Shown here one piece after another: positions 45,814 through 62,226 of a stretch of 64,000 nucleotides of DNA. The notes under the pieces are model-generated. The model saw only the letters and a program-made list of their open reading frames with translations, did not search any database and was not told where the DNA came from. Numbering within the stretch: the stretch's first letter is position 1; every line of letters starts with the position of its first letter. This DNA is from Microbacterium sp. 10M-3C3. Lineage in GTDB: Bacteria > Actinomycetota > Actinomycetes > Actinomycetales > Microbacteriaceae. Position numbers and translations under genes: made by a program. The stretch is from NCBI RefSeq assembly GCF_003931875.1, contig NZ_CP034245.1:2542001-2606000 (forward strand). The letters are read 5' to 3'.

Positions 45814-46605
45814 TCAGCGGACGTGGACGACGTCACCGGCCGAGACCGGGATCTCCTCGACGCCGGAAGCGACGACGAGACGGCCGTCCTCGTCGATGCG
45901 CTGGGCACGCCCCGCGAGGACGCGTCCGCCGGGGAGGGAGACCTCGACGTCCTTGCCGAGGGTCGCGCACAGGGCCTCGACCTCGGCTCGCACTCCCGCC
46001 GCGCCGGCGTCGCCGTTCGTGCGCAGGAGGGCGCCGAGCTGCTCGTCGAGCGCGGCGAGGTAGTCCGCGAGCAGCCGGTCGTCGTCGCTGTCGTGACCGA
46101 TCGCGGCGAACGAAGTCGCCGTCGCGACCGGCAGGTCGACGCGCGACATGCGGGTGTTCACGCCCGCGCCGATGACCACCGCATCCGGATGCCCCGGCAC
46201 GACCTCCGCGAGGATGCCGGAGATCTTCGCGCCGTCCACGAGCACGTCGTTGGGCCACTTCAGGCGCACGGTGTCGCCGCCGGGGAGCTGAGCGGCCACG
46301 GCGCGCGTCATCGCGGCGCCCGCGATGAGCGGGATCCACCCGCGCGCGTGCGGGGGAAGGTCATCGACGCGCACGAGCACCGACACCGCGAGCGCGGCGC
46401 CGGGCGGCGCGACCCACGTGCGGTCCAGGCGCCCGCGTCCCGCGCGCTGGTCGGTGGTCAGCAGCACGGACAGATGCGGCCACGCCTGCGGGTCGGCCGC
46501 GACGGCGGCGAGGACGTCGGCGTTCGTCGAGTCGGTGGTCTCGACCACCTGCAGCCGCGGGCTCACGGCCGCGGCGCGCGGGTATCCGCTCTCCGGAATC
46601 GGCAT
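45814..46605 (-). CDS. birA: Biotin--[acetyl-CoA-carboxylase] ligase
   Basis: The 263-residue monofunctional ligase attaches biotin to the carboxylase alpha subunit encoded at 55042. It shows ETTDSTNADVL, the biotinyl-AMP loop QRAGRGRLDRTWV, LKWPNDVLVDGAKISGILAEV and a C-terminal SH3-like part. There is no N-terminal DNA-binding domain, so it is not a repressor. The ATG at 46603-46605 lies six bases from TAGGGT (46617-46612). A GTG two codons upstream is less likely. It is separated from the divergent downstream genes by a palindromic repeat. Confidence 0.94.
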   Translation of the reverse strand: MPIPESGYPRAAAVSPRLQVVETTDSTNADVLAAVAADPQAWPHLSVLLTTDQRAGRGRLDRTWVAPPGAALAVSVLVRVDDLPPHARGWIPLIAGAAMTRAVAAQLPGGDTVRLKWPNDVLVDGAKISGILAEVVPGHPDAVVIGAGVNTRMSRVDLPVATATSFAAIGHDSDDDRLLADYLAALDEQLGALLRTNGDAGAAGVRAEVEALCATLGKDVEVSLPGGRVLAGRAQRIDEDGRLVVASGVEEIPVSAGDVVHVR

Positions 46606-46674
46606 GCCCACACCCTACGACCGCCACCCGCCCCCTTCGCGGCCTTGACAGGCGGCGAGACACGGCCGGTTGCG

Positions 46675-46737
46675 GGCGAATCGGCCGGATGCAGGAGGAA
46701 TCGCGCCGGATCGTACTGATCTCGGCCGATTCGCCTG
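46675..46737 (+). repeat. Palindromic repeat family 1, copy 1
   Basis: This 63-base element has ends GGCGAATCGGCCG and TCGGCCGATTCGCC as inverted repeats. It differs from copy 2 (47738-47800) at three positions. It lies 109 bases before the winged-helix/nuclease-fold gene at 46847. No transposase is present. Confidence 0.85.
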
Positions 46738-46846
46738 TATCCGGCGCGCGCGGGAGCTCCCCTCCACAGTCGCGCGGACGTACGCACTCCGGGCGGAAGT
46801 CTGTGGATGCCGTTGACGGGCGCACGCGCGCCGCGACTCTCGAGGG

Positions 46847-47692
46847 GTGGCATCACCGCGAGTACTCCGCCCGTTCCTCGATCACCGCGGCATCCTGAAC
46901 CGACGCACCGCCGAAGAGGCGGGGTGGCGACCGGACGCGCTACGCCGCGCGGTGCGGCGGGAGGGCCTCACCGCGCTGGGACGATCGTGGATCGTCGACG
47001 AACGCGCGACGCCCGAGGTGGCTTGGGCGGCCGAGCTCGGGGGGTGGGTGACCTGCTTGACCGCGGCCGCGATGCTCGGGTGGTGGCAGCCGCCGGCGGC
47101 GGACGACCGACCGCACATCGTCCTGCCTCGATCGGCACGGCGTAAACCCGAAGGCGTGCATGCGCACTGGTCGATCGGCCTGGTGCCCAGGTCATCTCGA
47201 AGCCTCCTCGACCCTGTCGAGAACGTCCTCTTCCTCGTCGCGTCGTGCGTCCCCTTCGACGACGCCCTCGCCGTCTGGGAGTCCGCGCTTCGCGTCGGGT
47301 CCGTCACGCGCGAGCATCTCGCGCTCGTCCCCTGGCGCGGAGAACAAGCCCGACGGCTCGCGGATGCGGCGACACACCTCTCCGACTCGGGGTTGGAGTC
47401 GCTGATGGCCGGCCGCCTGCGCCGTCGTGGCGTGCGGGTCGTGCAGCAGCCGGTCATCGGCGGCCGACCCGTGGACGGACTGGTCGGCGCGCGCCTGGTC
47501 TACCAGATCGACGGATTCGCGCATCACTCGGACCCGCGTCAGCGCCGGAGCGACATCGCCCATGACCGCCTGCTGCGCAGCCTCGGCTACACCGTGCTGC
47601 GCTTCGACTACCGCGAGATCGTCCACGAGTGGCCGCGCGTCGAAGCCGAGATCATCCGCGCGATGGTCCACGGCCTTCACCTTGCGCACTGA
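46847..47692 (+). CDS. Winged-helix plus DUF559-like nuclease-fold protein
   Basis: This 281-residue protein is intact. The N-terminal 60 residues look like the AbiEi-type winged helix: [21 protein letters not shown], then LGRSWIVDE. Residues about 180-275 match the DUF559/Vsr-like PD-(D/E)XK fold: Glu in [16 protein letters not shown], Asp in [17 protein letters not shown], then [31 protein letters not shown]. The usual catalytic Glu/Lys pair reads Q-I-D, so activity is uncertain. Proteins of this kind are numerous in Microbacteriaceae and uncharacterised. The GTG at 46847 follows GAGGG closely. A 7-base inverted pair TCCACAG (46763-46769)/CTGTGGA (46801-46807) lies upstream. Identical-orientation 63-base palindromes flank the gene. 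Confidence 0.75.
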
Positions 47693-47737
47693 GCGGCTCG
47701 CCGCATCCAGCGTCGCCGTGGCGCGTCGCGGAATGCA

Positions 47738-47800
47738 GGCGAATCGGCCGAACGCAGGAGGAATCGCGCCGGATCGTACTGATTTCGGCCGATTCGCCTG
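47738..47800 (+). repeat. Palindromic repeat family 1, copy 2
   Basis: This is a 63-base copy in the same orientation as copy 1, with terminal inverted repeats GGCGAATCGGCCGAA/TTCGGCCGATTCGCC. It starts 45 bases after the winged-helix/nuclease-fold gene and ends about 105 bases before the accD promoter. Confidence 0.85.
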
Positions 47801-47905
47801 CTCGGGGCGCGCGGGCCGGCGGGCGGGATCCTCGGATGCGGCGGGGCACAGCGGTCGGGCGGATGCGTTGTGGCGACCCTCCAACGTCGCCGCGATGCGC
47901 GCCGA

Positions 47906-47911
47906 TAGGGT
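47906..47911 (+). promoter_or_regulatory. accD -10 element
   Basis: TAGGGT ends seven bases before the accD GTG at 47919, fitting a leaderless message. It decides against the in-frame GTG at 47910, which overlaps the element. The birA gene uses the same hexamer. Confidence 0.55.
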
Positions 47912-47918
47912 GGAATCC

Positions 47919-49508
47919 GTGACCGAGCAGCACGATCTCTCCACCACCGCCGGCAAGATCGCGGATCTGCGGGCCCGCTACCAGGAGGCCGTCCTCGACG
48001 CCGAGGAGGCCGCGCGCGCCAAGCAGCACGCGAAGGGCAAGCTGACCGCGCGGGAGCGGATCGAGATGCTCGTCGACCCCGGCTCCTTCGTCGAGCTCGA
48101 CGAGTACGTGCGCCACCGCACGACGGCGTTCGGGATGGACAAGTCGCGCCCCTACGGCGATTCGGTGGTGACCGGCACCGGCACGATCCACGGCCGCACG
48201 GTCGCCGTCTACGCGCAGGACTTCTCCACTTTCGGCGGCTCGCTCGGCGAAGCGGCCGGCGACAAGATCATCAAGGTCATGGAATTCGCGCTGCGCAGCG
48301 GCATCCCGATCATCGGCATCCTCGACTCGGGCGGCGCGCGCATCCAGGAGGGCGTCGTCGCACTCGGCAAGTACGGCGAGATCTTCCGCCTGAACACCGC
48401 CGCCTCGGGCGTCATCCCGCAGATCTCGATCATCATGGGGCCGGCCGCCGGCGGCGCCGTCTACTCCCCCGCGCTCACCGACTTCGTGATCATGGTCGAC
48501 AAGACGAGCCAGATGTTCGTCACCGGCCCCGACGTCATCAAGACCGTCACCGGCGAGGACGTCGGCATGGAGGAGCTCGGCGGCGCGTACACGCACAACA
48601 CCCGGTCGGGTGTCGCGCACTACCTCGCCGAGGACGAGGACGACGCGATCGACTACGCCCGCTCGATGCTGAGCTTCCTCCCCGACAACAACCTCGACGA
48701 GATCCCGGTGTACGAGACGGCGTTCGAGTTCGAGACGACGGATGCGGACCGCTCGCTCAACCTCGTCATCCCCGACTCGCCGAACCAGCCCTACGACATC
48801 CACACGGTCATCGAGCACGTCGTCGACGACGGCGATTTCCTCGAGGTGCAGCCGCTGTTCGCGCCGAACATCGTCATCGGCTTCGGCCGCGTCGAGGGTC
48901 GCACGGTCGGCATCATCGCCAACCAGCCGTCGCAGATGGCCGGCACGCTCAACATCGACGCCGGTGAGAAGGCGAGCCGTTTCGTGCGGTTCTGCGACGC
49001 GTTCTCCATCCCGATCGTCACCCTCGTGGACGTGCCGGGTTACCTCCCCGGTACCGACCAGGAGTGGACCGGCGTCATCCGCCGCGGCGCGAAGCTCCTG
49101 TACGCGTACGCCGAGGCGACCGTGCCGCTGGTGACGGTGATCCTGCGCAAGGCCTACGGCGGCGCCTACATCGTCATGGGCTCGAAGCAGCTCGGCGCCG
49201 ACATCAACCTCGCGTGGCCGACCGCCGAGATCGCCGTGATGGGCGGTCAGGGCGCGGTGAACATCCTCTACCGTGGCGAGATCAAGCGCGCCGAGGAAGC
49301 GGGCGAGGACGTCGCGGCGGTGCGCACGCGCCTGGCGAACGAGTACACCTACAACGTCGCCTCGCCGTTCCTCGCCGCCGAGCGCGGCGAGCTCGACGGG
49401 ATCATCGAGCCGGCGCAGACGCGCGTCGCGATCGCGAAGGCGCTGCGGGCCCTGCGCGGCAAGCGCGCGAGCCAGCCCGCGAAGAAGCACGGGAACATCC
49501 CGCTGTGA
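47919..49508 (+). CDS. accD5: Acyl-CoA carboxylase beta subunit (carboxyltransferase)
   Basis: The 529-residue carboxyltransferase transfers carboxyl groups from biotin to acetyl- or propionyl-CoA. It shows [57 protein letters not shown], the oxyanion-hole region [14 protein letters not shown] and [13 protein letters not shown]. The pattern is that of AccD5/PccB-type proteins, so propionyl-CoA is the likelier substrate. The start is set by the promoter seven bases upstream. The stop overlaps accE (GTGA). The complete enzyme would include AccA (55042), AccE and BirA-added biotin. Confidence 0.93.
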
Positions 49509-49756
49509 GCGCGGATGCGACGACCGCTCAGGGGGACGCGCTCGACGCCGCGCGACCCCGCGTGGACGTGCGCCGTGGCAACCCCACGGACGAGGAGCTC
49601 GCCGCGGTGATCGCCGTCGTCGACGCGGCGTGGACGCAGGAGGCTGCGGCCGCCGTCGCCGCCGAGCCGGCGCGCCGCTCCCGCTGGCAGCTGTCGGCCC
49701 GCGGCCTGCGCACGCCGCTCCCCCGCGAGCAGGGGTGGAGCGGCTCCGTCGGCTGA
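49505..49756 (+). CDS. accE: Acyl-CoA carboxylase epsilon subunit
   Basis: The 83-residue protein matches actinobacterial carboxylase epsilon subunits: [21 protein letters not shown], then [24 protein letters not shown]. In Streptomyces and mycobacteria this small subunit stabilises the alpha-beta complex and raises activity. The GTG at 49505-49507 overlaps the accD stop (GTGA), giving coupled translation. The N-terminal 15 residues are Ala/Asp-rich and poorly conserved. Confidence 0.9.
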
Positions 49757-49799
49757 CCGGCGGGCGACTGAAGCATCTCGTCGCGGATGTCCCCCGAAA

Positions 49800-49959
49800 T
49801 ACCTACAGACGGACGGTCCAAAGCCCCGCCATACTGAAGGAGCTGGAACGCCTTGTGCGTTCGGCCGGACTGCTCTCCAGCCAGCTCCGGTCACGCGGAC
49901 GGTTTTCGGGTAACCGTCCGCCGAGGCGAGGGGCGGGCGGCTTCGCCGCCCCTCGCCTC
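49800..49959 (+). ncRNA. Candidate structured RNA in a convergent gap
   Basis: The gap between accE and the minus-strand membrane protein (285 bases) carries several strong stems. GGAGCTGG (49839-49846) pairs with CCAGCTCC (49881-49888). CGGACGGTT (49896-49904) pairs with AACCGTCCG (49912-49920). A second copy of CGGACGGT at 49810-49817 could compete for the same partner. A 14-pair terminator-like hairpin closes the region. TACCTA at 49800-49805 might be a -10 element, but no good -35 is seen. A free-standing small RNA is possible. A set of terminators is the plainer alternative. Confidence 0.3.
49923..49959. terminator. Strong bidirectional terminator hairpin
   Basis: Bases 49923-49936 (GAGGCGAGGGGCGG) and 49946-49959 form a perfect 14-pair stem around a nine-base loop. 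It lies between the convergent accDE and two-component system transcripts. No T-run follows, which is common in high-G+C actinobacteria. Confidence 0.75.
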
Positions 49960-50041
49960 CATCTCTCGGCTCGCCGGTCCGGTCACCCCCCCAGCCCCGG
50001 ACCGGTGGGCCGAGACGTGCGCCCGGGTCGGGCGCGGCGGG

Positions 50042-51094
50042 TCACGCGGACGGCTGCGCGGGACGGGCGATCTCCCGCCAGAGCTCGACGCTGTCTTCGT
50101 CCGACAGCCCGTCGCTCTCGCCCGACCGCCCGACGATCGTGACCGCGGTGTCGGAGTGCGGCGAGGTGCGGATGATGAGGCGCGTCGAGCTCGCACCCTG
50201 CAGGATCTCAGCCAGCTCGCGCCGGATCTCGACGAGCGAGGGCTCCGCGATGCCCTCGAGCCCGCCTTCGTCGAGCATCGTCACGGTGATGCCGCGCCGC
50301 CGCGCGTTCTCGAGCTCGGCGCGCACGACGTCGTCGAGAAGGCGCGGGCCGCGCAGCTCGTCTCGCAGTCGTCCCTCGGCCAGGCGCGCCTCCAGCCGCT
50401 CCGCGGCGCGCAGATTGCCGCCGGTCTCGATCGTGCGACCGAGGATGGGCCCGGCCGCCTGCAGCGCGCGCTGCACCTGCACGCGTCGTTCGCGCTGACG
50501 CCCGGCCTGCGACGCCTGCCACGCCGACGCCGCCTGCTGCAGCTCGGCGAGCTGGCGGGTGTCGCGCGCGGCGCGGTCGAGCGCCGCCATGAGCAGCTGC
50601 GCGGCGGCCACCCACACGACCGAGCCGACCAGCCCGAGGCTGAGGGCCGGGAGCAGCCCGATCCAGAGGATCGTCGACACTGCGACGGCCGCGAGGCCCA
50701 CCCACGCGACGATCGGCCGGCGCCGCACCATCACGATCGTCATCAGCGCGCCGATGCCGCCGATCGTCCACGTCGCGAACGGCTGCGTGCGCGAGTCCGG
50801 ATCGACCGCCCAGAAGACGGCGTTCGGAACGACGACGGCGACCCCGATCGCCAGGGCGCCGGCCCACACGGGAAGCGTGCGGTCGCGGCCGGGCACGGCG
50901 CGGGCCGGCGCGGCGCCCGAGCGCGGGCGTAGACCCCACAGCACCCACAGCCACGTCACCACCAGGTACAGCGGCAGCACCAGGAAGATCACCCACGGCT
51001 GGTCCACACGACCGCCCGACCACGCGAACCCGCGCGCGGCGAGGTACGCCGTGAAGGCGAGGGCGATGATGGAGACGATCGACCGGACGCTCAC
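50042..51094 (-). CDS. Six-helix membrane protein linked to a two-component system
   Basis: The 350-residue protein has about six transmembrane helices (residues 1-185), then a helix rich in Gln, Arg and Ala (LAELQQAASAWQASQAGRQR) and a C-terminal alpha/beta domain of about 120 residues. That domain resembles the shape of a histidine-kinase ATP-binding domain, but the N, G1 and G2 boxes are missing. It may be a degenerate sensor that pairs with the kinase. No known family is recognised. The GTG at 51092-51094 overlaps the kinase stop (GTGA). It is the last gene of a three-gene operon. Confidence 0.7.
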   Translation of the reverse strand: MSVRSIVSIIALAFTAYLAARGFAWSGGRVDQPWVIFLVLPLYLVVTWLWVLWGLRPRSGAAPARAVPGRDRTLPVWAGALAIGVAVVVPNAVFWAVDPDSRTQPFATWTIGGIGALMTIVMVRRRPIVAWVGLAAVAVSTILWIGLLPALSLGLVGSVVWVAAAQLLMAALDRAARDTRQLAELQQAASAWQASQAGRQRERRVQVQRALQAAGPILGRTIETGGNLRAAERLEARLAEGRLRDELRGPRLLDDVVRAELENARRRGITVTMLDEGGLEGIAEPSLVEIRRELAEILQGASSTRLIIRTSPHSDTAVTIVGRSGESDGLSDEDSVELWREIARPAQPSA

Positions 51095-52344
51095 CAGCGG
51101 TCCCCGCTCTCCCACTCCATCGTCACCGTGGTCCCCGCCCCGCTCGAGTCGATCTCCGTGCGCCCGCCCACGGCGGTGACGCGCGCGAGGATCGATCCGC
51201 GGATGCCGAGGCGGTCTTCCGGGATCGCGGCGACGTCGAACCCTTCGCCGGTGTCGCGCACGCGCACGCGCACGCGGCCGGGAACCCCCGTGCCGTGCAG
51301 CTCCACGGCGAGTCCCTGCGCGTTCGCGTGCTGCACGGCGTTGGCGACGGCCTGGAGGGCTGCGAGCACGAGCGCGCGAGCGACACGACCGGGCACGCGG
51401 GGCGCGTCGGGCTCGATGCGGCGGTCGACGCGCAGCTGCACGCCCATCTCGGTCGCCGCCTTCTCCAGCTCGTCCGCAAGCTGGGCGGCGTCGACGGGCT
51501 CGTCGCTGCCCTCCCACGCGTCCTTCTCGGCGTTGGCCAGGCGCGTGAGCGCCTCGCGGGCCATGCTCACCGCGAGAGTCCGCTCGCGGGGCGTGGTGGC
51601 GCGCTCGGCGGCCAGCAGAGCGCCGAGCACGCTGTCGTGCATGAGGGCGGCGACGGCGACGCGCTCGCTCTCGGTCGCGTCGGCAGCCGCTGCATCCGCG
51701 TAGCTCGCGACGGCCCGCGCGCGCGTCTCGTCCACGTTGGCGGCCACCGAGCGGTAGGTCCACCCGAGCACGACCAGGACGCTCCCCAGGATCAGTGCGA
51801 ACGACACGTCCAGTCCGACCGGGAGGAAGAAGTCGGGATCGAACCCGCCCTGGACGAGCCGCACCAAGCCGAAGAGGAGCGGTGTAACGATGAGGAACGC
51901 GACCTGCAGCGACATCGGGAAGGCCACGACCGTCGCCCCGGTGACGACATTGAGGAGGAAGAAGATCCATGGCTCCTCGGTCGGAACCGGGTTCGATCCC
52001 ACCGTGACGAAAGGCCATGCCACGAGCGCCAGCACGTACACGACCGCGAAGATCCCCGAGAACACCCGCGCGAACGTCCCGAACACGCACGCGACGATCA
52101 TCGCCAGGAGCGGGACGAAGACCGCGAGCACGAGCGGCACGTGCCAGCCGGGCCGCTCGTCGCCCGGGCCGAGCGCCGCGACGAACGCCTGGGCCCCGAG
52201 AACGAGGCAGATCGGGCCCGCGAGCAGCGTGATCAGCCGCTCGATGCGGGCGCGGGTGAAGGAACCGAGGTTCTCCGTGGTCTCCCGGGAATGAGGGATG
52301 CGGCCCCACGCGGCGTCCAGGACGGACCGGCCGCTGTCAGCCAT
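51091..52344 (-). CDS. Sensor histidine kinase, NarL/DesK type
   Basis: The 417-residue protein has a short cytosolic start and about six transmembrane helices (residues 30-195). The dimerisation/phosphoacceptor motif is VAALMHDSVLGALL, with the histidine before Asp. An HATPase domain follows with N-box LQAVANAVQHANAQG, G1 VRDTGEGFD and G2 RLGIRGSILARV. It should phosphorylate the LuxR-type regulator encoded directly upstream. The signal is unknown, and the lack of an extracellular domain suggests intramembrane sensing. The ATG at 52342-52344 overlaps the regulator by eight bases. Confidence 0.9.
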   Translation of the reverse strand: MADSGRSVLDAAWGRIPHSRETTENLGSFTRARIERLITLLAGPICLVLGAQAFVAALGPGDERPGWHVPLVLAVFVPLLAMIVACVFGTFARVFSGIFAVVYVLALVAWPFVTVGSNPVPTEEPWIFFLLNVVTGATVVAFPMSLQVAFLIVTPLLFGLVRLVQGGFDPDFFLPVGLDVSFALILGSVLVVLGWTYRSVAANVDETRARAVASYADAAAADATESERVAVAALMHDSVLGALLAAERATTPRERTLAVSMAREALTRLANAEKDAWEGSDEPVDAAQLADELEKAATEMGVQLRVDRRIEPDAPRVPGRVARALVLAALQAVANAVQHANAQGLAVELHGTGVPGRVRVRVRDTGEGFDVAAIPEDRLGIRGSILARVTAVGGRTEIDSSGAGTTVTMEWESGDRW

Positions 52345-52999
52345 CCCGGTCGCCTTCGGGCTGCTGCAGGATGCCGTCCTCCATCGCACGGCGCAGCAGA
52401 TCCACCTTGGTCGGGGCGGGGCGACCCACCTCGACGTACTTCACGCGGACGCGCGTGATGTTCTCCTTCGCCGTGGAGTAGGCGACGCCGAGCCGCTCGG
52501 CGACCGCCTTCAGCGGCAGCCCCGCGGCGTACAGGCGCAGCACCTCGCGCTCGCGCGCCGACAGCTGCGCGTCGGCGAACTCGCGATCGGCTTCGACGGC
52601 ACTGGCCCACTCGACGTTGTTGAGGGGCTCGCCGCTCGCGACCGTGCGGACGGCGGCGATCACCTCGTGGATGGGCGACGCCTTGCTGACGATGCCCGTC
52701 GCCCCGGCCGCCAGCGCCTCGCGCACCGCGGCGGGCCGGTCGGCGACGCTGTGGATGATCACGCTCGACCCGTCGGCGACGAGGCGCTGCACGTTCTCGG
52801 TCACGGTCGTGCCGTCGCCGAGCGTGAGGTCGAGCACGACGACGTCGGCGGGGGCCTCGCCCGTCGTCACCCGCCACGCCAGGTACTCCGACACGTTGCT
52901 GCCCGAGAAGACCACGGCGGTGTCCTGCTCGCGTGCGCACGCGGCCTCGAGTCCGAGGCGCACCGATTCGTGGTCGTCGATGAGGGCGACGCGCGTCAT
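52337..52999 (-). CDS. LuxR/NarL-type response regulator
   Basis: This 220-residue protein has a receiver domain with the acidic pair in ALIDDHESV, the phosphoacceptor in VVVLDLTLGDG and the conserved lysine in IVSKASP. The LuxR-type helix-turn-helix is LSAREREVLRLYAAGLPLKAV, then YSTAKENITRVRVKY. Two in-frame ATGs occur. That at 52997-52999 is chosen because TACGAT (53012-53007) is seven bases upstream, while the earlier one overlaps this hexamer. It is the first gene of the regulator-kinase-membrane protein operon. Confidence 0.92.
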   Translation of the reverse strand: MTRVALIDDHESVRLGLEAACAREQDTAVVFSGSNVSEYLAWRVTTGEAPADVVVLDLTLGDGTTVTENVQRLVADGSSVIIHSVADRPAAVREALAAGATGIVSKASPIHEVIAAVRTVASGEPLNNVEWASAVEADREFADAQLSAREREVLRLYAAGLPLKAVAERLGVAYSTAKENITRVRVKYVEVGRPAPTKVDLLRRAMEDGILQQPEGDRDG

Positions 53000-53018
53000 G
53001 ACGGCCATCGTATCGGGG

Positions 53019-54284
53019 TCAGCGGCCGAGGACCGCGACCGCCTCGACGTGATGCGAGTGCGGGAAGAGATCGAGCGCGCGGACGGGGCGCAGCGCGCGG
53101 TAGCCGAGGCCCGCGAACGTGCCGAGGTCGCGCGCGAGGGCGACCGGGTCGCACGCGACGTAGACGACTGATCGCGGGCGGAGGGCCGCGATCCGCTCGA
53201 CGACCTCGCCGCCGGCGCCGGCGCGGGGTGGGTCCAGGAGGACGGTGCCCGCCGACAGCCGCGCCCGCTCGCGCGCCGAGGCGTCGGCCTCGAGCTGCGC
53301 GAGGTAGCGGTCGACGCGCGCGGTCACCGCCCGGGCCCCCACCCACTCGGCGAGGTTCTCGCCCGCGTGCTCCGTCGCCCGCGGGCTGGACTCGACGCTC
53401 GTCACACGCGTCGCCGGGCCGCCGAGCTCTCCCAGCGCGGCGGCGAACAGACCCACTCCGCCGTACAGGTCGAGGTGCGCCGCATCCGGATCGACCGGGA
53501 GGTCGGGGAACGCCGCGCGCAGCTCCCCCGCGACGACGGACGTGAGCGTGTGCGCCGCGAGGCGGTGCACCTGCCAGAACCCGTCGACGTCGACGTGGAA
53601 CTCGCGGCCGCCGACCCGCTCGCGGACGGTCTCGCCGGCCGTGCCGCCACGGGCGCCGTCCGGGCGGGAGAGCACGCGCACGCGACCGTCGGCGGGCTGC
53701 GCGAGGTCGACGCGGCCGGGCGCCTGGCGGCCGAGACGCGCCGCGGCCTGGGCGACGGCGCCGGTCGCGAGCGGCAGATCGGGCACCTCGATGACGCGGT
53801 GGCTGCGGGCCGCGTACGGACCGACGCGCCCCTCGTCGTCGACGTGCAGGCTCACGCGCGTGCGCCACCGTGTGCCGTCCTCCGTCTCGCGCTGCTCGCC
53901 GTCGGCGAGCGCCGGCTCGATGCCGGCCGCCGCCTCGACCCGCCCGATGCGGGCGAGGGCGTCGCGCAGCACCGCCAGCTTGAGCTCCCGCTGGCGCGCG
54001 AGGACGATGTGCCCGAACTCCGCGCCGCCGGGCCGGTCCTCCGGCGCCACGGCGACATCGGCCGCCGCCCACACGTGCGACTGCCGTTCGGGCGCGGCGT
54101 CGATCACGTCCACCGTCTCCGCGCGCCAGAAGGACTTCTTGCGGGTGTCGGTCAGGCGCGCACGCACGCGCTCGCCCGGCAGCGTGTCGGAGACGAACAC
54201 GACCCGGCCGTCCAGACGCGCGACGAAGACGCCGCCGTGGGCGACGTCGACGATGTCGAGCTCGACGAGATCTCCCGCATCCAT
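53019..54284 (-). CDS. TRAM-domain RNA (uracil-5-)methyltransferase
   Basis: The 421-residue protein has an N-terminal TRAM domain (residues 1-60: VELDIVDVAHGGVFVARLDGRVVFVSDTLPGE). The SAM-binding domain has HLDLYGGVGLFAAALG, LLDPPRAGAGGEVVERI and the catalytic-cysteine motif VVYVACDPVALARDL. These mark the TrmA/RlmC/RlmD family, which methylates uridine in tRNA or 23S rRNA. The exact target cannot be told. The ATG at 54282-54284 has GGAGGG upstream. It stands alone, divergent from maf. Confidence 0.92.
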   Translation of the reverse strand: MDAGDLVELDIVDVAHGGVFVARLDGRVVFVSDTLPGERVRARLTDTRKKSFWRAETVDVIDAAPERQSHVWAAADVAVAPEDRPGGAEFGHIVLARQRELKLAVLRDALARIGRVEAAAGIEPALADGEQRETEDGTRWRTRVSLHVDDEGRVGPYAARSHRVIEVPDLPLATGAVAQAAARLGRQAPGRVDLAQPADGRVRVLSRPDGARGGTAGETVRERVGGREFHVDVDGFWQVHRLAAHTLTSVVAGELRAAFPDLPVDPDAAHLDLYGGVGLFAAALGELGGPATRVTSVESSPRATEHAGENLAEWVGARAVTARVDRYLAQLEADASARERARLSAGTVLLDPPRAGAGGEVVERIAALRPRSVVYVACDPVALARDLGTFAGLGYRALRPVRALDLFPHSHHVEAVAVLGR

Positions 54285-54315
54285 CCCTCCAGCCTCCCAC
54301 GGCTACGGTGAAGGC

Positions 54316-54963
54316 ATGCGCGTGTGCCTCGCCTCGACCTCCCCCGCGCGGCTGATGCTGCTCCGCCAGGCTGGCATCGAGCCGCTCGTCCGTCCTCCCG
54401 CCGTCGACGAGGAGGCCGTCATCGAGGCCACCGAGCGCGCGGAGGGGCGGCGCCTCCCCGCCGACGAGCACGTGCAGCTGCTCGCGCGGCTGAAGGCGGC
54501 CGACGTCGCCGACCCGCTCGCGGCGGAGGGCTTCGAGGGGTACGTCATCGGCGGCGACTCGATGTTCGAGCTCGACGGCGACATCCTCGGCAAGCCCTAC
54601 ACGTCGGCGGCGGCCACGGCGCGCTGGCACGGCATGCGGGGGCGCACCGGTGTGCTCCACTCCGGTCACAGCGTCGTGCTCGTCGAGGACGGCCGGATGC
54701 GGGAGGCCCACGCCGTCGCGCGCGCCTCTGTCACCTTCGCCTCCGACGTCGACGACGAGGAGATCGCCGCGTACGTCGCGACGGGCGAGCCGCTGCTGGT
54801 CGCCGGGGCGTTCACCGTGGACAGCCGCGGCGGCGCGTTCATCGAGCGCGTCGAGGGCGATCCCTCGACCGTCGTCGGGATGTCGCTGTCGACCCTCCGG
54901 CACCTGGTCCGCGAACTGGGAGGGGACTGGACGGGGCTGTGGAATCGGGAGCCGTCCTCGTAG
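54316..54963 (+). CDS. maf: Maf-family nucleotide pyrophosphatase
   Basis: This 215-residue protein has the Maf opening RVCLASTSPARLMLLRQAGI, then VIGGDSMFELDGDILGKP in place of the usual AADTVV segment, and AAYVATGEPLLVAGAFTVDSRGGAFIERVEGDPSTVVGMSL. Maf proteins hydrolyse non-canonical or excess nucleoside triphosphates and affect septation. The replaced acidic segment is typical of the actinobacterial subgroup. The ATG at 54316 is six bases after TACGGT. It sits upstream of accA, as in M. tuberculosis. Confidence 0.92.
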   Translation: MRVCLASTSPARLMLLRQAGIEPLVRPPAVDEEAVIEATERAEGRRLPADEHVQLLARLKAADVADPLAAEGFEGYVIGGDSMFELDGDILGKPYTSAAATARWHGMRGRTGVLHSGHSVVLVEDGRMREAHAVARASVTFASDVDDEEIAAYVATGEPLLVAGAFTVDSRGGAFIERVEGDPSTVVGMSLSTLRHLVRELGGDWTGLWNREPSS

Positions 54964-55041
54964 GGTTCCGCGCATTCTTTCCGGCGTTTCTTGTGCAGGG
55001 TGCTCAAAAGACCGCCCTGCGCGGTCGCTAGGCTGGCATCC

Positions 55042-56808
55042 ATGCCGGAAATCGCCAAGGTCCTCGTTGCCAACCGCGGCGAGATCGCCGTCCGTATCAT
55101 CCGCGCCGCCCGCGACTCGGGGCGCGCGAGCGTGGCGGTGTACGCCGACCAGGACCGCGATGCGCTCCACGCTCGTCTCGCCGACGAGGCCTACGCGCTG
55201 GAGGGTGCCACGAGCGCCGACACGTACCTGTCGATCGAGAAGATCCTGTCGGTGGCCCGTCGGTCGGGCGCCGACGCGGTGCATCCGGGCTACGGATTCC
55301 TGGCCGAGAACGCCGACTTCGCGCGCGCCGTCATCGGCGCGGGGCTCGTGTGGGTCGGCCCGTCCCCCGAGGCCATCGAGGCGCTGGGCGACAAGGTGAC
55401 CGCGCGTCACGTCGCCGAGAAGGTCGGCGCGCCCCTCGCTCCGGGAACGCCGGGCCCGGTCGCCGGAGCCGACGAGGTCGTCGCGTTCGCCGAGACCGTC
55501 GGTCTGCCGATCGCCATCAAGGCCGCGTACGGCGGCGGCGGACGCGGGCTCAAGGTCGCCCGCACGATCGAGGAGATCCCGGAGCTCTTCGATTCGGCCA
55601 CGCGCGAGGCGGTCGCTGCGTTCGGGCGCGGCGAGTGCTTCGTCGAGAAGTACCTCGACAAGCCGCGCCACGTCGAGACGCAGTGCCTCGCGGATGCGGC
55701 GGGCAACGTCGTGATCGTCTCCACGCGCGACTGCTCGCTGCAGCGCCGCCACCAGAAGCTCGTCGAGGAGGCCCCCGCGCCGTTCCTCACCGACGCCCAG
55801 AACGAGACCCTGTACGCCGCGTCGAAGGCGATCCTGCGCGAGGTCGGATACGTCGGGGCCGGCACGTGCGAGTTCCTCATCGGCGCCGACGGCACGATCT
55901 CGTTCCTCGAGGTCAACACCCGCCTGCAGGTCGAGCACCCGGTCTCGGAGGAGGTCACCGGTCTCGACCTCGTGCGCGAGCAGTTCCGTCTCGCCGAGGG
56001 CGAGGAGCTCGGCTACGACGACCCCGCCCCGGCCGGCCACTCGATCGAGTTCCGCATCAACGGCGAGGACCCCGGCCGCAACTTCCTCCCCCAGCCCGGC
56101 CCCATCCACGTCTTCAAGACGTTCGGCGGCCCCGGCGTCCGACTCGACTCGGGCGTCACCGCCGGCGACAGCGTGTCGGGTGCGTTCGACTCCCTGCTGG
56201 CGAAGATCATCGTCAGCGGTCGCGACCGCACGGAGGCGCTCGAGCGGGCGCGCCGCGCGCTCGACGAGTTCGAGGTGGCGGGGCTGCCGACCGTGCTGCC
56301 CTTCCACCGCAAGGTCGTGCGCGACCCCGCCTTCACCGCTGAGGACGGCGTCTTCGGCGTCTACACGCGCTGGATCGAGACCGAGTTCGTCAACGACATC
56401 CCGCCGTGGGACGGCGAGCTGGAGACCCCGGCCGAGCCGGCCGGGCGTCACACCGTCGTCGTCGAGGTCGGCGGCAAGCGCCTGGAGGTGAGCCTCCCCG
56501 ACCGCATCGCGAGCGCCCCGACCGCCATCGGCCGTCCTGCGGCCGCGCCGCCGTCCCGCCGCTCGCACGCCGCATCCCCCAACGCCGGAGCCTCGGGCGA
56601 CGCCGTCAAGGCCCCGATGCAGGCGACCGTCGTCAAGGTCGCCGTCGCGGAGGGTCAGCCGGTGGTGAAGGGCGACCTCGTCGTCGTGCTCGAGGCGATG
56701 AAGATGGAGCAGCCGATCCAGGCGCACAAGGACGGCGTGATCGGCGCGATCGACGCGACGCCGGGCACGACCGTGTCGGCCGGCCACCAGCTCCTCACGA
56801 TCGCCTGA
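55042..56808 (+). CDS. accA3: Acyl-CoA carboxylase alpha subunit (biotin carboxylase plus BCCP)
   Basis: The 588-residue protein has a biotin carboxylase domain over residues 1-about 450, with [65 protein letters not shown] and [21 protein letters not shown] linker follows, then the biotin carrier domain with the lysine motif [10 protein letters not shown] near residue 552. It matches the AccA3/BccA type that serves several beta subunits. The ATG at 55042 follows TAGGCT by seven bases. Biotin is added by the BirA at 45814. Its 3' end faces the lpdA-like gene across a palindromic repeat. Confidence 0.95.
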
Positions 56809-56820
56809 CGTCACGCTGAG

Positions 56821-56883
56821 CAGGCGAATCGGCCGAAGTCAGCACGAATCCGCGGATTTCCTCCTGATTTCGGCCGATTCGCC
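56821..56883 (-). repeat. Palindromic repeat family 1, copy 3 (inverted)
   Basis: Read on the minus strand, this 63-base element aligns without gaps to copy 2, with about ten differences. The terminal 15-base inverted repeats are unchanged. It lies between the convergent accA and lpdA-like genes and could also end transcription. Confidence 0.8.
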
Positions 56884-56939
56884 CGTTCTCGACGCGGCGC
56901 GCCCGCGGCGCGGCCGCGGCGCGAGGGGGCCCGAGTGGC

Positions 56940-58379
56940 TCAGTCGGCGCGGTCGACGATGTGCATCGCGCGCGTGGCGTCGGTGATGCTGCTCGACAGC
57001 GACGGGTAGACGGCGAACACGCGCGAGACCTGGTCGACGGTGAGGCGCCGCTCGACGGCGATCGCGACCGGGTAGATGAGCTCGGAGGCACGCGGGCCCA
57101 CGATCACGCCGCCGATCACGGTGCCGCTTCCCTTGCGCGCGATGATCTTCACGAACCCGTCCTTGGTGCCCTGCATCTTCGCGCGCGGGTTCGACGACAG
57201 CGGCAGCTTGCGCACCACGCCGTCGATCGTGCCGTCGGCGATGTCGTGCTCCTGCCAGCCGACCGTGGCGATCTCGGGGGCGGTGAAGATGTTCGCGGCG
57301 ATCCGACGGCGCTCCAGCGGGATCACCACGTCGCCGAGCGCGTGGAACACCGCCGTGCGGCCCTGCATCGATGCGACGGATGCCAGCGGCATGAACGTCG
57401 TGCAGTCGCCGGCGGCGTAGATGTTGGGCACCGACGTGCGCGCGACGCGGTTGACGCGGATGTGCCCGGACTCGGTCATCTGCACGCCCGCCTCCTCGAG
57501 ACCGATCCCCGCCGTGTTGGGGATCGAGCCGACGGCCATGAGGCAGTGCGAGCCCTCGATCGTCTGACCGTCGGCGAGCGTCACGACGACGCCGTCGCCG
57601 GTGTTGACGACGCTCTGCGCGCGCGCCTTCGACAGCAGCGTCATGCCGCCGCGCTTGAACACCTTCTCCAGCACCGCCGCGGCATCCGAGTCCTCGCCCG
57701 GCAGCACCTGGTCGCGGCTGGAGACGAGCGTCACGTGCGCGCCGAGGTTCATGTACGCCGAGGCGAACTCCGCGCCCGTGACGCCCGACCCGACGACGAT
57801 GAGGTGCTTGGGGAGCGCCTTCATGTCGTACAGCTGCGTCCACGTGAGGATCCGCTGCCCGTCGGGCTTCGCCGACGGCAGCTCGCGCGGTGACGCACCC
57901 ACCGACACGACGAGCGTGTCGGCCTCGATGCGGTCGAAGTCGGTGCCGCCGGCCTCGGTCGAGACGATGACGGCCGCGTCGCCGTCGAGGCGGCCATGAC
58001 CGGAGATGAGGCGCACGCCCGCCTCGACGAGCGACGCGCGCATGTCGTCGGACTGCTGGCGCGCGAGCGAGAGCACACGGGTGTTGACGGCGGCCATGTT
58101 GATGGCGACCTGGGGCTTGAGCGGCCGCCCGTCGCCGCTCTTGGCGAACAGCTCCACGCCGAGGTCGCTCGCGCGCGCGATCGCGACCGCCGCATCCGCC
58201 GTCGCGATGAGCGTCTTCGACGGCACGACGTCGGTGATGACGGCCGACCCGCCCACCCCCGCGCGCTCGACGAGGGTCACCTCGGCTCCGAGCTGCGCGG
58301 CGGCCAGCGCCGCCTCGTATCCGCCGGGACCGCCGCCGATGATGGCGACGCTCTGGGTGCGCTCGAAGCTCAAGGACAT
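56940..58379 (-). CDS. lpdA: LpdA-like NAD(P)H flavoprotein lacking the redox disulfide
   Basis: The 479-residue protein has the disulfide-reductase fold: FAD motif AIIGGGPGGYEAALAAAQLG, NAD-binding VVGSGVTGAEFASAY, and PNIYAAGDCTTFMPLASVASMQGR. The dimerisation domain ends FAVYPSLSSSI. The stretch that normally carries CxxxxC reads GGSAVITDVVPSKTL, so both redox cysteines are missing. It therefore cannot be a true lipoamide dehydrogenase. M. tuberculosis LpdA (Rv3303c) is similar and acts as a quinone reductase. The ATG at 58377-58379 has GGAGG and a CAGAAT -10 six bases upstream. Confidence 0.9.
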   Translation of the reverse strand: MSLSFERTQSVAIIGGGPGGYEAALAAAQLGAEVTLVERAGVGGSAVITDVVPSKTLIATADAAVAIARASDLGVELFAKSGDGRPLKPQVAINMAAVNTRVLSLARQQSDDMRASLVEAGVRLISGHGRLDGDAAVIVSTEAGGTDFDRIEADTLVVSVGASPRELPSAKPDGQRILTWTQLYDMKALPKHLIVVGSGVTGAEFASAYMNLGAHVTLVSSRDQVLPGEDSDAAAVLEKVFKRGGMTLLSKARAQSVVNTGDGVVVTLADGQTIEGSHCLMAVGSIPNTAGIGLEEAGVQMTESGHIRVNRVARTSVPNIYAAGDCTTFMPLASVASMQGRTAVFHALGDVVIPLERRRIAANIFTAPEIATVGWQEHDIADGTIDGVVRKLPLSSNPRAKMQGTKDGFVKIIARKGSGTVIGGVIVGPRASELIYPVAIAVERRLTVDQVSRVFAVYPSLSSSITDATRAMHIVDRAD

Positions 58380-58417
58380 GCCTCCATTCTGGTGGTCCCG
58401 CGCCCGGCCCTCGCGCG

Positions 58418-58447
58418 TTGGCGCCGACCACGCCGGGTTCCTAGAGT
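58418..58447 (+). promoter_or_regulatory. Promoter of the purine nucleoside phosphorylase operon
   Basis: TTGGCG (58418-58423) and TAGAGT (58442-58447) are 18 bases apart. The gene's ATG follows after GGAGGG, six bases later. The leader is therefore extremely short, although a ribosome-site-like sequence is present. Confidence 0.55.
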
Positions 58448-58453
58448 GGAGGG

Positions 58454-59287
58454 ATGCCGCAGACCCACGGGAATCCGCTCGACGAGCCCGCCGCCGACCC
58501 CTTCGAGATCGCCGCCGAGGCGGCCGCCGACATCGCCCGTCTCACCGGCGTCGACCGTCATGACATCGCCGTGACGCTCGGAAGCGGCTGGGGACGCGCG
58601 GCCGAGCTCATCGGCGAGACCGTCGCGACGATCCCCGCCCCCGACGTGACGGGGTTCAGCAAGCCCGCGCTCGAGGGGCACGTCGGCACGCTCCGCAGCG
58701 TCCGCACCGCGGCGGGGAAGCACGTGCTCGTCATCGGCGCGCGCACGCACTTCTACGAGAACCACGGCGTCCGACGGGTCGTGCACAGCGTGCGCACCGC
58801 CGCCGCGACCGGCGCCTCGACGATGATCCTCACGAACGGCGCCGGCGGCGTCCGCGAGACGTGGACGCCCGGTCAGCCCGTGCTCATCAGCGACCACATC
58901 AACCTCACGGCGGCGTCGCCGCTCGAAGGCGCCACCTTCATCGACCTCACCGACCTGTACTCGTCGCGTCTGCGCGACCTCGCGCGCTCGATCGACCCGT
59001 CGCTCGACGAGGGCGTGTACTGCCAGTTCCGCGGGCCGCACTACGAGACGCCCGCCGAAGTGCAGATGGCGAAGATCATCGGCGGCCACATCGTGGGCAT
59101 GTCCACGGCGCTGGAGGCGATCGCCGCCCGCCAGGCGGGGATGGAGATCCTGGGCATGTCGCTCATCACGAACCTCGCGGCCGGCATTCAGACGACGCCC
59201 CTCAGCCACGAGGAGGTGCTCGAGGCCGGCCGCGCCGCCGAGCCCGTCATCTCCGCCCTCCTCGCACGCATCATCGAGGCCCTGTGA
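58454..59287 (+). CDS. punA: Purine nucleoside phosphorylase (trimeric type)
   Basis: The 277-residue enzyme cleaves purine nucleosides with phosphate in the salvage pathway. It shows AVTLGSGWGRAAELI, HFYENHGVRRVVHSVRTA, the phosphate/base region LTNGAGGVRETWTPGQPVLISDHINLT and FRGPHYETPAEVQMAK. GMSTALEAIAARQAGMEILG is the PNP/MTAP family 2 signature. The ATG at 58454 is six bases from TAGAGT. Its TGA overlaps the GTG of the phosphohexomutase gene, so ribose-1-phosphate formed here can be passed to that enzyme. Confidence 0.94.
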   Translation: MPQTHGNPLDEPAADPFEIAAEAAADIARLTGVDRHDIAVTLGSGWGRAAELIGETVATIPAPDVTGFSKPALEGHVGTLRSVRTAAGKHVLVIGARTHFYENHGVRRVVHSVRTAAATGASTMILTNGAGGVRETWTPGQPVLISDHINLTAASPLEGATFIDLTDLYSSRLRDLARSIDPSLDEGVYCQFRGPHYETPAEVQMAKIIGGHIVGMSTALEAIAARQAGMEILGMSLITNLAAGIQTTPLSHEEVLEAGRAAEPVISALLARIIEAL

Positions 59288-60981
59288 GCACCCCGGGGAG
59301 CGACGCGGCGTCGGGCGACGCGCTGCTCGACGACGCCCGCGCGTGGCTCGCGCAAGACCCCGACAAGACCACGCGCGCGGAGCTGCGCGCCCTCGTCGAC
59401 GCCGCCGCATCCGGAGACGACGCCGCGCGCGCCGACCTCGCCGACCGCTTCTCGCAGCGGCTCGCGTTCGGCACCGCCGGCCTGCGCGGCGCCCTCGGCG
59501 CGGGCCCGAACCGCATGAACCGCGTGCTCGTCGCGCAGGCCGCCGCGGGCCTCGCCGCCTACCTCCGCGAGCGCGCCGGCGACGACGAGACCCCGCGCGT
59601 CGTGATCGGATACGACGGCCGGCGCAACTCCGACGTCTTCGCGCGCGACTCGGCGGAGATCTTCGCCGGCGGGGGCCTGCACGCGATCCTCCTGCCGCGG
59701 ATGCTGCCGACGCCGGTGCTCGCGTTCGCCGTGCGCCATCTCGACGCCGCGGCCGGCGTCATGGTGACGGCGAGCCACAACCCGCCCGACGACAACGGGT
59801 ACAAGGTCTACCTCGGCGGCGCCGACGAGGGCGCGCAGATCGTCTCCCCCGCCGACGCCGAGATCGCCGCGCACATCCAGGCGGTCGCCGATCGCGGCGA
59901 CATCGCGCTCATCCCCCGGTCGGTCGGGTACGCCAACGCGACCGACGAGCTGGTCGACGCGTACGTCGCCGCGACGGCCGCCGTCGCGCCCGCCCCCGAG
60001 CGTGCGGAGCTGCACTGGGTGTACACCGCGATGCACGGCGTCGGGTGGGACACGCTGTCGCGGATCCTGGATGCGGCGGGGTACCCGCATCCGACCGTCG
60101 TGGCCGCGCAGATCGAGCCGGACGGGGCGTTCCCCACGGTGGCGTTCCCGAATCCCGAGGAGCCCGGCGCGATGGACCTCGCGTTCGAGACCGCCCGGCA
60201 GGAGGGCGCGGAGCTCATTCTCGCGAACGACCCCGACGCCGATCGGCTGGCCGTGGCGATCCCCGATCCCGACGCCGACGGCGGCTGGCGGCGGCTGAGC
60301 GGCAACGAGGTGGGGCTGCTGCTGGGCCGGCGCGCCGCGCGGGCGGCCGAGGGCACGCCCGGCGCGTCGCTCGCGTGCTCGCTCGTCTCCTCCCCGGGGC
60401 TGCAGGCGATCGCCGAGCGGTACGGCCTCGGCTTCCACGCGACGCTCACGGGCTTCAAGTGGATCTCGCGCGCGCCCGGCATCGTCTACGGGTTCGAGGA
60501 GGCGCTCGGCTATCTCGTGAACCCCGACACCGTCCGCGACAAGGACGGCATCTCCGCGGCCGTCGCGGTGCTCGGGCTCGCGGCCGAGGCCCGCGGGCGC
60601 GGGGCCGACCTCGCGACGCTGCTGCGCGAGCTGCGCGACGAGTTCGGCGCGTACGCGAGCGACCAGATCTCCGTCCGCGTGACCGAGGTGTCGGAGATCG
60701 CCGCGATCATGGCCGCCCTCCGCGCCGAGCCGCCCGCCCGCGTGGGCGAGGTCGAGGTCGAGCGCATCGACGACCTCCGCGACGGGTTCGAGGGGCTGCC
60801 GCCGGGCGACGTGCTGCGCATGTGGCTCGCCGACGGCTCGCGACTCATCGTGCGCCCGTCGGGCACCGAGCCCAAGCTCAAGATGTACCTCGACGTGCGC
60901 GGCGCGACGGAGAAGAAGGCGCGCAAGCGCCTCGCCGCCCTCGCCGACGGCGCGCGCGAGCTCCTCGCCCGCGTGCGCTGA
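59284..60981 (+). CDS. pmmB: Phosphohexomutase/phosphopentomutase (PMM/PGM family)
   Basis: The 565-residue protein has the four-domain alpha-phosphohexomutase layout. The catalytic serine lies in GVMVTASHNPPDDNGYKVY, metal binding in ILANDPDADRLAVA, the sugar loop in GFEEALGYLVNPD and the phosphate loop in VRPSGTEPKLKMYLDV. The FGTAGLRGALGAGPNRMN opening places it with PmmB/Pgm2-type enzymes, which often act on ribose-1-phosphate. The GTG at 59284 overlaps the nucleoside phosphorylase stop (GTGA), which suggests that role here as well as mannose metabolism. Confidence 0.92.
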   Translation: MSTPGSDAASGDALLDDARAWLAQDPDKTTRAELRALVDAAASGDDAARADLADRFSQRLAFGTAGLRGALGAGPNRMNRVLVAQAAAGLAAYLRERAGDDETPRVVIGYDGRRNSDVFARDSAEIFAGGGLHAILLPRMLPTPVLAFAVRHLDAAAGVMVTASHNPPDDNGYKVYLGGADEGAQIVSPADAEIAAHIQAVADRGDIALIPRSVGYANATDELVDAYVAATAAVAPAPERAELHWVYTAMHGVGWDTLSRILDAAGYPHPTVVAAQIEPDGAFPTVAFPNPEEPGAMDLAFETARQEGAELILANDPDADRLAVAIPDPDADGGWRRLSGNEVGLLLGRRAARAAEGTPGASLACSLVSSPGLQAIAERYGLGFHATLTGFKWISRAPGIVYGFEEALGYLVNPDTVRDKDGISAAVAVLGLAAEARGRGADLATLLRELRDEFGAYASDQISVRVTEVSEIAAIMAALRAEPPARVGEVEVERIDDLRDGFEGLPPGDVLRMWLADGSRLIVRPSGTEPKLKMYLDVRGATEKKARKRLAALADGARELLARVR

Positions 60982-61006
60982 CCCCGCCGGGCTCATTCGC
61001 CGTCCC

Positions 61007-61075
61007 GTTCGGGGCGCGATTGCGGCGGCGGGGCGCGCATTCGACGCCCCGAGCGGCGCGGAGGCGCCCCAAACG
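61007..61075 (+). repeat. Palindromic repeat family 2, copy A
   Basis: This 69-base element has outer arms TTCGGGGCGC and GCGCCCCAA and inner arms CGGGGCGCGC and CGCCCCGA. It ends 109 bases before the broken winged-helix/nuclease-fold gene. It shares architecture and most bases with copy B (62157-62226). Confidence 0.7.
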
Positions 61076-61184
61076 CATGGCGCCGACGAGGCACCTCTCC
61101 TCCACACCCCGCCGACGACCGCATCCGCCTCGAGAAATCCGGTGACGCCGTGGTGGGGAGCGCGGCGGGCGGCAGGGTGTCCCC

Positions 61185-62151
61185 ATGCGAATCGCCGGCC
61201 GCGTCATCCTCCTGCGGCGTCACGACCTGCTCTCCGACCTGGCTGCGCGCGAACTCCGGCGCGAACGGGAGGAGGGGCGCCTTTTCGTGGTGCGCCCGGG
61301 TGTGTTTGCCCGGCGGCCCGACGGCGATGCGCTCTCTTCGGAGGAGAAGATGCTCGTCCGCGCCGTCGCGTGGGATTGGGTGGCGGATGCGGCGCCCGTC
61401 ATCTCGCACCTCTCCGCCGCCGCGGCGCACGGCCTCCCTGTATGGGGCCCAGAGGACTCGCGGGTGCACGTGATCGTGCCAGAAGAGCGTCCCGGTCGTG
61501 CCGCGCAGCTCGTCCGTCACCGCGGTGCGCTGGCGGACGACGACGTCGTCCTCCGCCACGGCATGCGCGTGACCTCCCTCGAGCGGACCGTCGCCGACGT
61601 GACGCGCACGGCGACCCACGACAGCGCCGTGGCCGTGGCCGACGCCGCGATGCGCGCCTGCGCCTTCCGCGCACCCGGCGACTACGACCAGCGCGCGGCG
61701 GAGGGCTTCCGTGCCCGGTGCCTGGAGATCGCCCGGCGCAGTGCGCACGGGGCCGGTCGGGCGGCGCGCGTGCTGCGGGTTCGCGGACGGCCGGTCGCAG
61801 CTCCCCGGCGAGAGTGTGAGCCGGGTGCGCCTGCACCAGCTCGGCTTCGCGCCGCCGGACCTCCAGGTGCCGGTGGCCGCACCGCGAGGTCGGTGGTTCT
61901 GGATCGACTTCGGACTGCGCGACGTCTCGGCGTCGGGCGAGTTCGATGGCACGGGCAAGTACCGCGACGCCCTGCTTCGCGCAGGGCTCACACCGGAGGA
62001 GGTTCTCGAGAAGGAGAAGGAGCGGGAGGACTGGATCAGGGGGACGACCGGCCGACCGCTCGTGCGCTGGCGCTCCGCGCACATCTCCACCCCTCAGGCG
62101 CTCGCGGCACGGCTGGCCGCCTTCGGGGTCGCGCCGCCTTCCTCCCGCTGA
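61185..62151 (+). pseudogene. Winged-helix plus nuclease-fold gene, broken by +1 frameshift
   Basis: The first 197 codons encode an AbiEi-type winged helix (LLRRHDLLSDLAARELRRER, VVRPGVFARRP) and a middle domain (SHLSAAAAHGLPVWGP, VTSLERTVADVTRTA). Then the frame breaks in the G run at 61777-61779: reading VLR, dropping one G, gives FADGRSQLPGESVSRVRLHQLGF in the +1 frame. This continues through WFWIDFGLRD, GEFDGTGKYRDALLR and EKEREDWIRGTTG to the stop at 62149-62151. Removing one base restores about 321 residues of a normal family member with an intact E-D-ExK-like nuclease core. A recent mutation or a sequencing error is equally possible. Confidence 0.82.
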
Positions 62152-62156
62152 GCGGG

Positions 62157-62226
62157 GTTCGGGGCGCACGCGCGCCGGTCGGGGCGCGCCCGGTCCGCCC
62201 CGACGCTGCATCCGCGCCCCAAAACG
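62157..62226 (+). repeat. Palindromic repeat family 2, copy B
   Basis: This 70-base element is in the same orientation as copy A, with arms TTCGGGGCGC/GCGCCCCAA outside and CGGGGCGCGC/CGCCCCGA inside. It begins five bases after the end of the broken winged-helix/nuclease-fold gene. Confidence 0.7.

Follow-up and report, generated by a model that had tools for sequence, protein, structure and literature searches.

A nuclease-fold gene between two copies of a palindrome: a candidate two-part system in Microbacterium and its relatives

Why does a gene for a nuclease-fold protein lie between two nearly identical palindromes? This question is raised by gene A of Microbacterium sp. 10M-3C3, which is located in the window analysed here, a stretch of 64,000 nucleotides covering bases 2542001-2606000 of the 3.39-Mb single-contig genome (genome G000). 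An initial annotation of this window, made from its letters alone, had described two 63-base palindromes that bracket gene A in the same orientation with three mismatches, and had proposed that protein and palindrome might be a cognate pair recalling repetitive extragenic palindromic (REP) elements and their REP-associated tyrosine transposases (RAYTs). Our analysis bore out the bracketing and supports the cognate pair; the likeness to REPs is treated below. The coordinates of the features are collected in Table 1.

The two copies of the palindrome flanking gene A (family A) show three differences in 63 bases, and the flanks as a whole match as an 80-nt direct repeat at 89% identity. The similarity between the upstream and downstream flanks scored 122, compared with a maximum of 34 in dinucleotide shuffles of the downstream flank (0/500 reached the observed value). 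In these two copies 22 and 25 of the 32 arm positions pair, and as single strands both have lower folding energies than any of 200 shuffles (z -5.2 and -6.4). They are also the most similar pair among the 20 family-A copies compared.

The protein encoded by gene A consists of an AbiEi-type winged-helix and middle domain (about residues 3-176) joined to a DUF559/Vsr-like nuclease (about residues 181-279), a combination that the annotation had named and that both sequence and model confirm. The predicted structures of this protein and of a homolog of gene B, a second gene of this type in the window, resemble AbiEi plus the I-Bth0305I/Vsr nuclease. The putative catalytic residues E184, D210, R233, D236, and D240 are invariant in 82/82 proteins, while Q220, D222, G223, and H227 belong to a search pattern and owe their invariance partly to construction. 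The helix at residues 29-38 of the model is more variable in the 82 proteins (2.42 bits) than the middle domain (1.95) or the nuclease (1.31), and is presumably the DNA-reading helix. A match to PF18741 (MTES_1575-type Vsr restriction endonuclease) was found at E 1.8e-6 and 28.3 bits, under the cut-off of 38.2. PADLOC gave no hit for gene A, and its AbiEi models hit the gene-B homolog. Some sources name such proteins 'very-short-patch-repair endonuclease' or 'DUF559 domain-containing'.

Is the bracketing a general property of these genes? Homologs were found at E<=1e-20 in 53/59 sampled genomes of the genus. The named loci are the best 80 of 157 and come from Microbacterium, Cryobacterium, Leifsonia, Agromyces, Mycetocola, and others. 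The results showed that the similarity between upstream and downstream flanks exceeds the 99% point of 1600 shuffles at 67 of the 80 named loci, against 5/169 for neighbouring genes; four of 47 genes of the window passed the same test, gene A among them. The annotation had allowed that the bracketing might be a coincidence of common intergenic palindromes, and this is contradicted by the two counts. Chance or a general richness in palindromes was ruled out by the controls with neighbouring genes, shuffles, and outlying stretches. The same counts argue against ordinary terminators, or REP-like repeats spread by another enzyme (such as a RAYT), next to which the nuclease genes would lie by chance, an explanation that we consider very improbable. 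In the class as a whole, homologs (E<=1e-15) occur in 49/296 genomes and 25/114 genera. Outside the family, 17 loci were usable (L290, a short contig with a score of 818, was excluded from this count), and 8 of them score above 34, the 99% point of the shuffles being 31. The arrangement therefore extends past Microbacteriaceae, though it is detected less often there.

The paralogs of this genome are surrounded by different palindrome families, which again speaks against a common repeat with chance neighbours. Gene B had been described as bracketed by a palindrome family unrelated to family A, and its flanks indeed score 56 compared with a shuffle maximum of 45 (0/500 shuffles); its two elements match better inverted (56) than direct (35). 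A protein search of the genome yielded five homologs besides genes A and B (L029-L033), with repeats of the CGTCGGAGGATCG type at L029, of the TTCGGGAGGAGATC type at L030, and of other types at L031-L033, where the elements have longer outer arms and are without the 19-base repeat. None of 500 shuffles reached the observed similarity at genes A and B, L029, L030, and L032, and one did at L031; the bracketing of L033 is weak (17/500). Thus, six of the seven genes are palindrome-flanked at <=1/500 shuffles.

Some peculiarities of these loci were also observed. Gene B belongs to a sister AbiEi-nuclease subfamily (motif D...EFDGxxKY) and is frameshifted yet still palindrome-bracketed. L031 (G000:C1 around 901862-902524) has an in-frame TAG, and its right-hand element is only half a palindrome by eye; gene and element may be decaying together. 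An equal gap of 109 bases between palindrome and start codon, claimed for both gene A and gene B, did not hold: measured from the outer arms, the gaps come to 111 and 110, the value hinging on where the palindrome ends. We take the near-equal spacing as coincidence because across 57 loci the protein match begins at no fixed distance from the upstream element (quartiles 127-162).

Do protein and palindrome diverge together? For 83 loci, protein identity was compared with the best flank similarity (cut-off above 45); 470 syntenic pairs, whose outer neighbours match by tblastx, were set aside, and 2933 pairs remained. Palindrome similarity was shared by 0/380 of these pairs at less than 40% protein identity, 3/2430 at 40-55%, 9/71 at 55-60%, 9/41 at 60-70%, and 10/11 above 70%. 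That is, it was found in 28/123 pairs at >=55% identity compared with 3/2810 below, and the mean identity of palindrome-similar pairs (0.65) was reached in 0/5000 permutations. A smooth correlation over all protein distances was rejected as weak (rho 0.07 for non-syntenic pairs, with 12/1000 permutations as high and one of the 83 proteins translated from the wrong strand, which is corrected in the counts above); coupling is confined to pairs with more than about 55% identity. Across species, and even at different loci, similar palindromes therefore go with similar proteins, the kind of co-occurrence that the annotation had asked to be tested. With families that are private and a similarity that follows the protein, a cognate pair is well supported by these sequence comparisons. 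They also bear on a homing-type invader, in which the palindromes would be independent intergenic sites cut by the nuclease so that its own gene is copied in, the bracketing being the footprint of insertion. From one species to another the palindrome sequence changes along with the protein, which contradicts palindromes that are independent of the gene.

The elements share a common plan, in which a motif occurs twice in direct orientation, usually with an offset of 19 bases, and then twice inverted; the geometry is shared, the sequence is not. By our reading, family A has four half-sites of the type CAGG(n)CGAAT with the direct pair 19 apart: CAGGCGAATCGGCCG is followed by CAGnACGAAT, whose CAG lies 19 bases further along, and this by the inverse. 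An internal direct 11-mer repeat (>=9/11) was found in 93/112 elements of above-threshold loci, against 20/112 after shuffling (elements shorter than 60 or longer than 105 were left out), with an offset of 19 in 66 and of 18 in 9 of the 93. A strict four-half-site detector found the geometry in 40/80 upstream and 41/80 downstream flanks, and on both sides in 26/80 loci, compared with 2/153 control stretches further out at the same loci.

What maintains this symmetry? The arms pair well, yet they do not covary in the three families examined, although the power of the test is limited by many invariant positions. In family A, pairing was 83.9% compared with 84.8% in shuffles, without compensation. 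A second comparison gave 0.697 for family A (0.711 shuffled) and 0.729 for the L030 family (0.742 shuffled), and a family in another genome, G191, gave 0.719 against 0.768 (4 of its 20 copies, with less than 60% identity without gaps, were left out and 14 distinct rows remained). Because the arms vary independently, the symmetry seems to be kept by the reading of each half-site in double-stranded DNA rather than by folding of the strand. An RNA hairpin or terminator as the main cause was rejected, since arm compensation, which an RNA hairpin requires, is missing and Rfam gave no match at gathering score in 46000-64000, two further points against terminators with chance neighbours.

Independent arm variation is also expected of operator half-sites. 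This favours an autoregulator, an AbiEi-like repressor for which the upstream palindrome would be the operator and the dispersed copies further operators, with the nuclease doing something else. AbiEi acts as a repressor of its own promoter, where it binds a long inverted repeat of 11 bp that reaches 23 bp on each side of 3 bp (PMC3985639). In addition, about 110 bases separate the upstream element from the start codon of gene A. On the contrary, the second copy behind the gene itself, the invariance of the putative catalytic residues, and the placement of the dispersed copies do not fit, and we regard this explanation as unlikely.

Where are the dispersed copies? The counts in the complete genome, which the annotation had called for, stay far from the hundreds that it would have taken as refuting: 21 distinct places for family A (E<=0.02), 16 for the L030 family, and at least 8 for the L029 family, a lower bound with 40 of 80 candidates scored. 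Family B was rejected as a dispersed family, its matches elsewhere being partial, the best covering 46 bases at E 7e-7 (40/51 candidates scored). Among the 59 genus genomes (E<=0.001), family A occurs here only, plus one match each in G033 and G047, and the G191 family, compared with seven other genomes, has no match except one in G047. By codon-based gene calls, gaps between convergent genes hold 26/43 placed copies of the three families of this genome, the background being the small sample of 506/5157 intergenic bases in the window that belong to convergent gaps. For 37/38 measured dispersed copies, a stop codon lies within 51 nt. The third family-A copy of the window has two genes converging on it, 55042-56808 (+) and 56940-58379 (-). 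Terminators and REPs commonly stand in such positions, shortly after the stop codons of genes that converge, and this is the point in favour of ordinary terminators or REP-like repeats. The chance version of that explanation is refuted by the bracketing and cognacy counts; the palindromes may serve as terminators besides. For an autoregulator, copies lying mostly behind genes are unfavourable; in G191 the placement is mixed, with 5 copies convergent, 6 codirectional, 6 divergent, and 4 within open frames (n=21).

Several features of placement stand by themselves. In family A, the nearest stop codon is 12-51 bases away for 17/18 measurable copies, a narrow range that might reflect an insertion preference. 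The L030 family forms 4 adjacent pairs within 3 kb (one around the nuclease gene), compared with a random mean of 0.21. The possibility that close pairs of the other families hide further nuclease copies was rejected: tblastn with 30 homologs (E<=1e-4) found nothing between them. In G191, three palindromes (L317, L318, L322) lie about 170-195 bases apart on contig 17, 35630-36065, inside an open proline- and glutamate-rich frame, as read by eye.

What does the junction look like elsewhere? The left neighbour of gene A, birA, is present at E<=1e-60 in 243/247 genomes and served as the fixed point; the right neighbour encodes a carboxyltransferase that, from its sequence type, we take to be accD. 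Among the 30 best-matching birA loci, the birA-accD junction holds the gene in 8, no gene in 13, and a solo palindrome in 1, and is undetermined in 8. The 13 gene-less spacers measure 95-204 bases, have at most 18/30 arm matches and no clear palindrome, and are too diverged for base-level alignment. The solo palindrome (L233, genome G191) has 21/30 arm matches; we read it as a gene lost between its two copies, other histories being possible for this one locus. Thus, the comparison of empty and occupied sites that had been suggested yielded occupied, empty, and solo states, and no new insertion of a dispersed copy. The precise absence of a palindrome in a sister genome was sought at a single site, where the copy has decayed instead. 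One gene-less spacer, L232, carries a short direct-repeat array of the GGAGAGGAG type, which may be a remnant or belong to another kind of repeat. A classical homing site is interrupted by its gene. In contrast, gene A lies between two whole palindromes, a point against the homing-type invader, which we consider improbable.

Table 1 Features of the window and palindrome pairs elsewhere in the genome
Feature	Position	Strand	Remark
birA, left neighbour of gene A	45814..46611	-	fixed point for occupied/empty comparison
Family-A palindrome, upstream copy	46675..46737	+	60/63 identical to downstream copy
Gene A, intact, AbiEi-type plus DUF559/Vsr-like nuclease	46847..47692	+	281 amino acids (281 codons)
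Family-A palindrome, downstream copy	47738..47800	+	direct repeat match to upstream copy
Presumed accD-type carboxyltransferase gene, right neighbour of gene A	47919..49508	+	codon-based call starts 47895
Third family-A copy, dispersed	56821..56883		84% over 63 bases
Family-B palindrome, upstream of gene B	61007..61074		direct motif pair CGGGGCGCG 19 apart
Gene B, frameshifted	61185..62151	+	AbiEi-like N-terminal part from 61185; nuclease part in other frame, 61711-62151
Family-B palindrome, downstream of gene B	62157..62225		motif pair 20 apart
L030- or L029-family palindrome pairs around unrelated genes	G000 3181551/3182477, 187623/188681, 655036/657015 (L213-L215), 26253/27180 (L216)		0.9-2.0 kb apart

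Taken together, we give a probability of roughly 60% to a two-part system, in which a PD-(D/E)XK nuclease of the AbiEi-Vsr/EDxHD type and its private palindrome belong together, the palindrome being recognised, cut, and maintained or spread by the protein. Because both folds are joined in one protein and an element with four half-sites lies beside its gene, the protein would most simply bind its element. The element, of about 60-80 bp with two direct half-sites about 19 bp apart and two inverted ones, would be read in double-stranded DNA by the N-terminal AbiEi-type module and nicked or broken by the nuclease domain; repair from another copy would then homogenise, multiply, or move it. The gene would remain bracketed, travelling and being inherited as palindrome-gene-palindrome, and its loss between the two copies may leave a solo palindrome, as the one G191 locus suggests. 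Whether this amounts, in Actinomycetes, to a selfish or domesticated system convergent with REP/RAYT, with AbiEi-Vsr nucleases that recognise, cut, and copy private palindromes via repair and paralogs that each shifted target along with their palindromes while keeping the 19-bp geometry, seems to us evenly balanced.

Several findings weigh against the two-part system. The annotation had pointed to genes without a flanking palindrome as a telling case: 67/80 named loci are bracketed, and 13/80 fall below the flank-similarity threshold, with no detectable pair; the same is true of 9/17 loci outside the family, and the strict geometry is on neither side in 25/80 loci. L030-family copies also enclose three unrelated genes of this genome, and L029-family copies enclose one; therefore, palindrome bracketing is not exclusive to nuclease genes. 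In G191, with about 20 copies of its palindrome, a search around 28 loci gave no nuclease homolog within 1.5 kb, and G050 shows only the two copies flanking its gene (E<=0.001); copy number therefore does not simply follow gene presence. One dispersed copy followed across three related genomes (present in G224 and G140, eroded in G050) is inherited vertically and decaying. Moreover, about 20 intact targets stand in a living genome, and cutting must be restrained somehow.

How does this arrangement compare with known systems? The REP/REPIN-RAYT system (REPtron) likewise has palindrome copies beside the gene, palindrome groups tied to enzymes, dispersed copies, and decaying singlets (PMC3116915 and PMC8049555; for further behavioural likeness, PMC8266576). 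Two REPtron features are found here, an enzyme gene flanked by its own palindrome family (67/80 loci) and dispersed extragenic copies, but two of the five tested fail: the enzyme is an AbiEi plus Vsr-type nuclease instead of an HUH/Y1 tyrosine transposase, and no GTAG/CGTC tag stands at the foot of the family-A consensus (20 copies). The elements differ further in having four half-sites with 19-bp direct spacing and no arm covariation, and in occupying 8-21 places per family in this genome, whereas REPtrons reach hundreds. The REP/RAYT resemblance holds for behaviour and not for homology. The EDxHD homing endonuclease I-Bth0305I, which is a dimer on a target of nearly 60 bp (PMC3943268), shares the Vsr-like fold with conserved acidic and histidine residues (H227 partly by construction); unlike it, the gene here is free-standing and chromosomal, between two whole presumed targets, with more copies elsewhere. 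The AbiE type IV toxin-antitoxin system shares the AbiEi-type winged helix plus a further AbiEi domain; in contrast, gene A also carries a nuclease domain, its palindromes lie on both sides and dispersed, and no AbiEii toxin gene stands beside it at this locus, the neighbours being birA and the accD-type gene. The MTES_1575-type Vsr nuclease (PF18741), the family matched below cut-off, is one domain of a large HEPN/helicase protein, and no palindrome is mentioned in the available part of PMC3710099. A search of open-access literature gave nothing that connects these nucleases with palindromes, and no role for these proteins was met in the literature examined. By behaviour the arrangement is analogous to REPtrons; by machinery it appears to be new, as far as a search that did not reach preprints or most of the subscription literature can show.

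What would such a pair mean? Most of these nucleases come with a DNA partner that is readable, and genome sequences could thus reveal the targets, and with them the specificities, of many variants. How the specificity of a DNA-binding nuclease changes in step with its target could then readily be tested. Should the nuclease spread or homogenise its palindrome, partnerships of a repeat with an enzyme would have evolved at least twice in bacteria, with unrelated enzymes, and these actinomycetes would, if this is true, provide a second system for testing why REP-like repeats persist.
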